The position numbers and the translations under genes were made by a program. This document shows, piece after piece, positions 56,509-59,015 of a DNA stretch of 64,000 bases. Origin of the DNA: Manganibacter manganicus (GTDB lineage: Bacteria > Pseudomonadota > Alphaproteobacteria > Rhizobiales > Rhizobiaceae); assembly GCF_002075885.1 (NCBI RefSeq), contig NZ_MDET01000060.1:1-64000 (forward strand), read 5' to 3'. Each line of letters opens with the position of its first letter. The stretch's first letter is position 1. The notes below the pieces were generated by a model. That model had not been told where the DNA came from. It saw nothing but the letters and a program-made list of their open reading frames with translations, and did not search any database.

Positions 56509-56745
56509 TCAGAACGCGCGGAATGTCACGGTCGTAAAAGTGTCCTTGATGCCGGCAATCACCTGGACCTTCTGATTGACAAAATGGCCGATATCTTCGC
56601 CATCGTCCACATAGAATTTGGCCAAGAGGTCGTATTGCCCGGCAGTGGAATAAATTTCAGAAGCGATCTCTGCATCGGCCAGTTCGCTGGCGACCTCATA
56701 GGCCTTGCCGAGATCACACTTGATCTGCACAAAAAATGCCTTCAT
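56509..56745 (-). CDS. standalone Lrp/AsnC ligand-binding (RAM) domain protein
   Basis: A 78-aa protein made only of the RAM domain of Lrp/AsnC regulators (KAFFVQIKCDLGKAYEVAS, then YSTAGQYDLLAKFYVDDGED and VNQKVQVIAGIKDTF) without the DNA-binding half. Standalone RAM proteins can bind amino acids and form multimers; no target is known here. The ATG at 56745 gives the correct domain start; the frame open to 56802 adds poor sequence. Confidence 0.88.
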   Translation of the reverse strand: MKAFFVQIKCDLGKAYEVASELADAEIASEIYSTAGQYDLLAKFYVDDGEDIGHFVNQKVQVIAGIKDTFTTVTFRAF

Positions 56746-56811
56746 CGCCGTACTCCGTCTGGATGTTAGGTGTCTTGTCGCAAACTGCGATATTACTTTC
56801 AAGCGGTGTGC

Positions 56812-57942
56812 TTACAGCGCAGCGATGTCCCCGCGTGCCCAGTTTTCGGAGATACCGGCAGCGCGCGTGGTGAATTCGCCCTTCTCGATCGAGTCGCGAA
56901 TGTCCTGCATCAGACTTTGATAGTAGGCCAGATTATTCCAGGTCAGAAGCATGGCGCCGAGCGCTTCCTGCGAGCGCACGAGATGGTGCAGATAGGCCCT
57001 TGAATAATCTCGCGCGGCCGGGCAATCGCTCTGTTCATCAAGCGGGCGCGGATCATCGGCGTGACGGGCGTTGCGCAGATTGACCTTCCCACGCCGCGTA
57101 TAGGCGAGGCCGTGGCGGCCTGCCCTCGTCGGCATGACACAGTCGAACATGTCGATACCGCGCGCCACCGATTTCAGAATGTCATCCGGCGTGCCGACTC
57201 CCATCAGGTAGCGTGGCTTGTTTGCCGGTAATTCCGGACAGGTGATTTCCAGCATTTCGAGCATCACCGCCTGCGGCTCGCCAACGGCCAACCCGCCGAC
57301 CGCGTAGCCTTTAAGGTCCATCGCGGAAAGCGCCTGCGCGGACTTCACGCGAAGATCAGCCACATCGCCACCCTGCACGATGCCGAATATGGCCTTGCCG
57401 GGCTGCACGCCGAAGGCTGCCTTGCAGCGCTCCGCCCAACGCAGCGACAATTCCATTGCCCGCTCGACCTCTTTGTGCGGCGCAGGCAGCGCCGTGCACT
57501 CATCGAGCTGCATCTGTATATCGGAATCCAACAAGCCTTGAATTTCGATCGAACGCTCCGGTGTCATCTCATAAGCCGCACCATCGATATGCGAACGAAA
57601 AGTGACGCCATGTTCTGTAAGCTTACGCAGCTTCGACAGGGACATCACCTGGAACCCGCCGGAATCGGTCAGGATCGGATAAGGCCAGCGGGCAAACTCA
57701 TGCAGGCCGCCAAGACGCGCCATTCGCTCCGCACCGGGCCGCAGCATCAGATGGTAGGTGTTACCGAGAATAATGTCGGCTCCGAGCGCCCTGACCTGAT
57801 CGAGATACATCGCCTTGACAGTACCGCCCGTGCCAACAGGCATGAAGGCAGGCGTCCTGATCGTACCGCGCGGCATGGCAATCTCACCACGGCGGGCAAT
57901 ACCATCGGTGGCAATGAGGTGGAAAGCAAACTCGGAATTCAT
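56812..57942 (-). CDS. tgt: tRNA-guanine transglycosylase, zinc ligands largely lost
   Basis: Swaps guanine 34 for preQ1 in tRNAs with GUN anticodons. The 376-aa protein has normal catalytic blocks: [48 protein letters not shown] and the nucleophile region [13 protein letters not shown]. But in the zinc site CxCxxC...H, the residues read S305, C307, A310 and N336, so three of four ligands are gone. Overlaps queA by four bases, the order of the queuosine operon. Confidence 0.92.
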
Positions 57943-59015
57943 CGGTCTGCCCTGAACAGCAAGCTGGCATCGCCATAGGAATAAAACCGGTATCCGGTGT
58001 CGACGGCATGGGCGTAGGCGGCACGCATCGTGTCCAATCCGGAAAGAGCCGAAACCAGCATGAACAACGTCGAGCGCGGCAGATGAAAATTCGTCATCAG
58101 GGCATCCACCAGCCGGAAGCGATAGCCAGGCGTGATGAAAATATCAGTCGAGCCAGACCAGGCTGCTATGGTGCCGTCGGGTTGCACGGCGCTCTCCAGA
58201 AGCCGCAACGATGTCGTACCGACGGCAACGATGCGCCCGCCGCGCGCCTTGGCGGCGTTCAGCGCATCGGCGACGCTCTGCGGCACGAAACCCGTCTCGG
58301 CATGCATCTTGTGGTTCGCTGTATCGTCAGCCTTGACCGGCAGAAACGTACCGGCGCCGACATGCAACGTCACGAAATGCCGTTCTATGCCCTTCGCGTC
58401 GAGCGCGGCAAAAAGCTCCGGCGTAAAATGCAGACCAGCAGTGGGTGCCGCCACCGCTCCCTCCTCACGAGCATAGATGGTCTGGTAGTCAGTTCGATCG
58501 CGCTCGTCCTCGTCGCGTTTCGAAGCAATGTAGGGTGGCAAAGGAATATGGCCGACCGCATGCAGCGCCTCATCCAGAAACGGTCCGGAAAGATCAAACT
58601 CCAGCAGGACCTCGCCGCCCTCTCCTTTCTCGATCACTTTTGCATCGAGTTGACCCAAAAAGCAGGAATTCCCGTCATGGCCGAAATGGATATGGTCGCC
58701 GGCAGCGATACGCTTTCCCGGCCGCATGAACGCGTGCCAACGGTCCGGACCAACACGCATATGCAGTGTCGCCTCGACTTGCGCAGAGGCATCGCCGCGC
58801 CGCCTGGTGCCATTTAATTGAGCCGGGATGACCTTCGTGTCGTTGAAAACCAGGACGTCGCCGGCCTCAAGCAGCGAGGGGAGATCCCGGACTATGCGAT
58901 CCTCACTAGCCTTTTCCGGTCGCACGACAAGAAGCCGCGCGCTGTCGCGCGGTTCCGCCGGACGAAGGGCAATACGGTTTTCAGGTAACTCGAAATCGAA
59001 TAAATCGACACGCAT
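57939..59015 (-). CDS. queA: S-adenosylmethionine:tRNA ribosyltransferase-isomerase
   Basis: Converts preQ1 at position 34 to epoxyqueuosine using the ribosyl of SAM. The 358-aa protein has the QueA blocks [50 protein letters not shown] and the C-terminal [15 protein letters not shown]. Overlaps the DMT transporter stop by one base and tgt by four bases. Confidence 0.95.

Follow-up and report, generated by a model that had tools for sequence, protein, structure and literature searches.

The tRNA-guanine(34) transglycosylase (TGT) of Manganibacter manganicus encoded in the window, that is, in the whole 64,000-nucleotide stretch of DNA that was analysed, has lost three of the four residues that bind structural zinc in the Zymomonas mobilis and Escherichia coli enzymes, and the complete ligand set is likewise missing from all sampled TGTs of its order, Hyphomicrobiales. 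The protein is very probably a working, orthologous and queA-coupled TGT that uses the usual mechanism and whose C-terminal subdomain folds without structural zinc. It is predicted to put preQ1 in place of G34 in tRNAs that have a GUN anticodon, with D267 as the nucleophile and D93 as the general acid/base.

The tgt Gene and Its Surroundings

The tgt gene lies at 56812..57942 on the minus strand as an open reading frame of 376 residues, with an ATG at 57942 and a stop codon that ends at 56812. Its identification as a tRNA-guanine transglycosylase, made in the first-pass annotation, is borne out by full-length agreement with the NCBIfam equivalog model TIGR00430 (467.7 bits; curated cut-off, 306.75) and by a score of 504.9 bits against the Pfam TGT family PF01702 (cut-off, 26.3). 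A genome search found one TGT copy.

The upstream neighbor on the same strand is queA (57939..59015; PF02547, 420.8 bits), which encodes the next enzyme of the queuosine pathway and overlaps tgt by four bases, ATGA. Further upstream, beyond queA, are genes for a YdcZ-type membrane protein, two cyclophilins and a cytidylyltransferase-like protein, the last being coaD judging by its position and by Sinorhizobium meliloti annotation. Directly downstream of tgt and on the same strand, 56509-56802 encodes a stand-alone Lrp/AsnC ligand-binding domain protein in which a DNA-binding domain was not detected. QueF and QueG are also encoded in the genome, away from tgt, and the queuosine-precursor transporter family PF02592 is present. 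A convincing QueC was not found in this genome, the best match being a 563-residue frame that covers 76 of 210 positions at 24.9 bits; the contigs concerned in these precursor-supply findings are C4, C12 and C20. Of the 31 genomes of the genus that were searched, 20 have a strong QueC match (E 1.7e-38 or better). Cells of this strain may import preQ0 instead of synthesizing it.

Zinc-Ligand Positions of the Window TGT

An HMMER alignment with Z. mobilis TGT runs without gaps through the ligand stretch. The canonical ligands of the Z. mobilis and E. coli enzymes, Cys, Cys, Cys and His, fall on S305 (codon agc, 57028..57030), C307 (tgc, 57022..57024), A310 (gcg, 57013..57015) and N336 (aat, 56935..56937), all on the minus strand and in the open frame. 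The Z. mobilis ligands at these columns are Cys318, Cys320, Cys323 and His349, respectively. C307 is the sole ligand kept, and the protein stands outside the zinc-binding TGT subset that has C-x-C-x2-C and the His. The first-pass annotation had assigned the ligands to the same four residues, and the gap-free alignment with both reference enzymes upholds that assignment. Its statement that one Cys is left is correct for the window protein (C307) but fails as a rule: this Cys is gone in Bradyrhizobium, Methylocapsa and others.

Misalignment was considered and rejected: no gap interrupts the stretch against TGT of either Z. mobilis or E. coli, and graded intermediates occur among relatives. The relatives also rule out sequencing error and chance, since the full set (hereafter CCCH) is missing throughout the genome, genus, family and order (116 of 116 own-order TGTs). 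A second, zinc-bearing TGT in the same genome is also excluded, the single TGT being the one described here.

Distribution of the Loss Among Relatives

The four ligand columns were tabulated for 300 TGTs aligned with the window protein, which were drawn from genomes at four kinship distances and from 80 named genomes; all tallies are sample counts, not censuses, and L001, L002, L098, L299 and L300 were left out as duplicates. CCCH is present in 125 of the 300. Two further entries have one gapped ligand column each, L251 because a contig end truncates it and L263 because of a deletion; they belong to the 300 but not to the 173 gap-free TGTs without the site (hereafter, zinc-site-less TGTs).

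CCCH is absent from all 116 TGTs read at the level of genome, genus, family or order (window TGT included; sampled from about 270 genomes with a match, and 8 of 160 genomes in one of the searches behind this sample gave no TGT match). In the class outside this order, 63 TGTs of 80 have CCCH and 17 do not; these 80 come from 79 genomes, of 170 with a match among 190, and are mostly better-scoring, the most divergent TGTs of the class being nearly absent. All 20 TGTs from other classes of the phylum have CCCH (sampled from 119 genomes with a match). Among the best 80 of 593 named matches, CCCH occurs in 0 of 27 Hyphomicrobiales (Rhizobium, Agrobacterium, Mesorhizobium, Brucella, Aurantimonas, Xanthobacter, Methylocapsa, Bradyrhizobium and others), 0 of 5 Pelagibacterales, 6 of 8 Acetobacterales and 18 of 18 Gammaproteobacteria. 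The two Acetobacterales without it, Bombella mellum and an Acetobacteraceae bacterium, share the same loop. Single entries were CCCH for Paracoccus (Rhodobacterales) and E. coli, and SCAN for Methylobacterium.

The first-pass annotation had suspected a lineage trait of Hyphomicrobiales and had proposed mapping the losses on a TGT alignment across Alphaproteobacteria. That alignment revealed an order-wide loss (0 of 116 by kinship; 0 of 27 named, among the best 80 of 593) together with losses elsewhere; the suspicion was right but too modest, as further, independent losses lie outside Hyphomicrobiales.

In one uncultured member of Sphingomonadales (L263), the site went by deletion and not by substitution, which left a shorter zinc loop (PESPTAQWSKAY). 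Split tgt matches, each in two overlapping pieces and one with an internal stop, were seen at G057:C1:2952090-2953210 and G502:C1:689590-690662, and are possibly frameshifted genes or assembly errors.

Number and Direction of the Changes

A careful tree was built from 97 TGTs hand-picked from the 300, with odd ones deliberately included, L177 and L178 left out, and residues 297-346, which hold the trait columns, removed. On this tree the site changes between present and absent 11 times (10-11 in bootstrap trees, the bootstrap being not fully settled), and well-supported (starred) branches alone force at least 8 changes. A wider, quick tree of 216 TGTs has 8 changes, of which starred branches force 6, and a single loss accounts for most of a 129-member set. 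Independent losers in the careful tree include the Pelagibacterales, a Pirellulaceae, a Sphingomonadales with part of the loop deleted, a Geminicoccaceae plus a relative, and the Bombella type.

These counts do not separate loss from gain. Most of the changes, in Hyphomicrobiales and neighbors, in Pelagibacterales, in a Bombella lineage and in others, are read as losses because gammaproteobacterial and planctomycete relatives in the ligand table, the human and mouse proteins and archaeal TGT carry the zinc site. The base of Alphaproteobacteria is without resolution in the careful tree, where a mostly CCCH group of 40 members (94/83) sits within the likewise unresolved zinc-site-less set. One early loss followed by regain in this group is unlikely, since four ligands would need to return.

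Three CCCH proteins speak against a simple history. L107 is nested among zinc-site-less TGTs in either tree, in a starred 90-member set of the quick tree (SH-aLRT 96) and with weak support (81/79) in the careful tree; L177 and L178, which have long branches, fall in a starred 18-member set of the quick tree. Residue 277 is N in L107 and H in L177 and L178. Gene transfer, regain and tree error are the candidate explanations for these placements.

Likely Order of Ligand Loss

The pattern with all three Cys and no His occurs in none of the 300 TGTs, and His is never the sole missing ligand. By contrast, 25 of the 173 zinc-site-less TGTs still have His although one to three Cys are gone. Partial patterns with His in the 300 are CC-H (2), C--H (2), -C-H (17) and --CH (1), and four have His only, one of them the deletion protein L263. 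Most frequent as an end state is -C-- (131, including L251, whose His column is cut off). A likely path is therefore CCCH to CCSH to SCSH to SC[AS]N. In some Rhizobiaceae (L199, L203, L213 and L220-L222), His appears at 336 within groups that bear N, which suggests that this position toggles free of metal constraint.

The Cys at the 307 column is kept in 149 of the 173 zinc-site-less TGTs. Fifteen Hyphomicrobiales TGTs have W, S, N, T, E, H or V there, so the second Cys is not needed either, and residual zinc binding by the remaining Cys is rejected as a general rule. The Hyphomicrobiales-type loop is now uniform, S-x-C-P-A-[AS]-R-D-Y. When residue volumes were summed over the four ligand positions, the zinc-site-less TGTs had a median of 401 cubic angstroms (5-95% range, 375-571), compared with 479 for the ligands. 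The residues are mostly smaller, so the site has mostly shrunk and has not been filled; filling by bulky residues is not the rule, the exceptions being bulkier types such as that of Bradyrhizobium (W307, I336).

Integrity and Function of the Enzyme

The catalytic nucleophile column (D267, codon 57142..57144, minus strand) and the general acid/base column (D93, codon 57664..57666, minus strand) hold Asp in all 171 zinc-site-less TGTs and all 123 CCCH TGTs compared. D267 and D93 correspond to Z. mobilis Asp280 and Asp102. The window TGT has the catalytic Asp pair and the preQ1 pocket (D93, D147, Q190, GGLAV, M247 and D267), and D93, D147, Q190, G217, V220, M247, D267, R273 and R276 are each the same residue in 171 of 171 zinc-site-less TGTs. 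The earlier remark that the catalytic residues look intact thus holds for all columns checked. Y317 and H320, equally invariant (171 of 171), correspond to Z. mobilis Tyr330 and His333, which belong to the hot spot of the TGT dimer (PMC5395182, in part).

The gene is under strong purifying selection, with dN about a tenth of dS. In Nei-Gojobori estimates from our own script, the window tgt compared with three genes of the same genus gave dN of about 0.10 and dS of about 1.0-1.1, and two closer pairs gave dN/dS values of 0.048/0.615 and 0.031/0.331.

Published genetics supports in vivo activity of the TGT of the species S. meliloti. A tgt mutant of strain 1021 lost the que phenotype, and preQ1 rescued queC and queF mutants, whereas those in tgt or queA were not rescued (PMC3568095, in part); these tgt mutants are plasmid insertions in strain 1021, and the TGT sequence compared here is that of strain Ak57. 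Bartonella henselae TGT together with preQ1 gave partial complementation in a queDF tgt strain of E. coli (PMC11570991, in part). From its family membership, this TGT presumably lacks the zinc site; the best 80 of 593 named matches included no Bartonella. As described for Bartonella, tgt occurs without a queA match in 2 of 10 small genomes of the family that were searched (G091 and G006), and both of these TGTs read SCAN.

Proposed Folding Without Zinc

Two AlphaFold models of the window protein were made. The mean pLDDT was 93.8 with an alignment of 62 TGTs and 90.1 with 28 zinc-site-less TGTs only; block means over residues 291-350 were 92-98 across both models and 92-97 in the latter. The best PDB match of the 62-sequence model is Z. 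mobilis TGT, 1ozm (TM 0.94; rmsd 1.4; Z 55.9 over 370 residues), and the model superposed on it comprises the TIM barrel and the C-terminal subdomain. AlphaFold does not sense metals, and the confident prediction of the subdomain from zinc-site-less sequences alone is compatible with a metal-free fold without being proof of it.

We infer that the protein is without any metal. Replacement of the zinc by packing, as the first-pass annotation had proposed, is put forward here as a hypothesis, in which the S-x-C-P-A-[AS]-R-D-Y loop and helix packing would take over the job of zinc. The order-wide and repeated loss makes zinc look like a dispensable brace. It is quite possible, and is proposed tentatively, that the structural zinc is a removable brace which was lost many times (at least 8 forced changes of state, mostly losses), Cys before His, and that in Hyphomicrobiales the new, strongly conserved loop and H277 hold the subdomain and the dimer interface in a metal-free form. 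On this reading, a textbook zinc enzyme would do without metal throughout a large order of soil and host-associated bacteria.

H277 (codon 57112..57114, minus strand) adjoins Arg276 and marks Hyphomicrobiales-type TGTs: His is found there in 155 of 173 zinc-site-less TGTs vs 2 of 125 CCCH TGTs. Since it is the best single residue marker of the zinc-site-less state, C307 is retained as noted above and D312 is also enriched (129 of 173 zinc-site-less TGTs), there is room for a different metal site, in which C307, H277 and one or two other residues would hold a metal and the enzyme would still be a metalloprotein. This reading is improbable. H277 is kept in all 15 Hyphomicrobiales TGTs that have lost C307, so the two residues do not behave as partners, and position 312 varies among these proteins. 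Eighteen zinc-site-less TGTs have T or N at 277, including those of the independent losers (Pelagibacterales, Bombella, Pirellulaceae and Geminicoccaceae); because these losers do without it, H277 ranks as a clade marker. It is nearly fixed in that clade and may simply be ancestral there. After residue 277, no new Cys column is enriched by more than 0.25; the one column that is, at 235, lies outside the subdomain. Relocation of the ligands within the subdomain was rejected on these grounds, the H277 candidate being judged unlikely.

Metal-free folding of a working enzyme also has to be weighed against decay, in which the TGT is weakened or moonlighting, much of its activity is gone and the missing zinc is a sign of this. 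The lost site is one described as required (PMC9508795, in part), and the B. henselae enzyme, which would share its absence by family, complements only partially (PMC11570991, in part). However, the invariant catalytic columns (171 of 171), the strong purifying selection, the overlap of tgt with queA in a genome that also carries queF and queG, and the tgt mutant phenotype of S. meliloti (PMC3568095, in part) make decay highly improbable. A different question is why the site was lost. Pelagibacterales are ocean oligotrophs, and all five of their TGTs among the best 80 of 593 named matches have lost the site, as would be expected if selection for zinc economy, not drift after the zinc had become dispensable, lay behind the loss. 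Yet the loss is also found in soil and symbiotic lineages. A zinc-sparing paralogue pair, with a zinc-free second copy under Zur, involves two copies, and the M. manganicus genome has one TGT; nearly all own-order genomes likewise give one match each, which leaves no second, zinc-bearing copy of the kind seen in regulated zinc-sparing pairs. Zinc economy is an unlikely driver.

Relation to Known Systems

Z. mobilis TGT (PDB 1ozm, 1pud and others) has the same fold as the window TGT, about 57% identity and shared catalytic and dimer residues, but it has a zinc bound by Cys/Cys/Cys/His where the window TGT has S, C, A and N. E. coli TGT belongs to the same family (53% identity) and, unlike the window TGT, has a complete CCCH. 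Chong reportedly showed in 1995 that the E. coli enzyme is a zinc protein. Zinc is also retained in both human QTRT1 and mouse QTRT2, which belong to the same superfamily and have the same subdomain (PMC6165067, in part). The zinc residues of TGT have been called highly conserved (PMC4425180, in part), and TGT appears in a 2022 list of enzymes that "require zinc for activity" (PMC9508795, in part). The first-pass annotation had described the ligands as essential for the folding of the E. coli and Zymomonas enzymes. In the open-licence literature, no printed mention of a zinc-free or zinc-ligand-less TGT was found, an absence that is weak evidence.

Bacterial glutamyl-tRNA synthetases offer a parallel: they too are tRNA enzymes, and many lack the motif for zinc, which turned out to be dispensable (PMC4381286, in part). 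The protein and domain are unrelated to TGT, and in that case domain swaps were made and zinc content was measured (same source, in part). TGT joins glutamyl-tRNA synthetase as a case in which structural zinc is evolutionarily cheap to lose. The window TGT is a variant of a known enzyme; its interest is that natural counter-examples are set against a widely stated cofactor requirement, in a form that is directly testable. If Hyphomicrobiales TGTs are metal-free, comparisons among natural enzymes whose activity is known could put the role of zinc to the test, and the default assignment of a zinc cofactor would be an error across a large order of bacteria.

One such enzyme with published genetics is that of S. 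meliloti (SMc01206 in strain 1021). The Ak57 sequence is 77% identical to the window TGT, reads SCTN and has lost the same three ligands. Its gene lies in the same coaD-cyclophilin-cyclophilin-tgt order, and queA is not in that record's incomplete gene table. The function is known from the mutants described above; in the available part of that report (PMC3568095), the word zinc has 0 occurrences. The Ak57 record (CP090106.1; 3.7 Mb), which carries coaD and tgt, is labelled as plasmid pSymB. Because tgt of strain 1021 is on the main chromosome (PMC3568095, in part), this replicon label may be wrong. Several other records with tgt that are labelled as plasmids are chromosome-sized.
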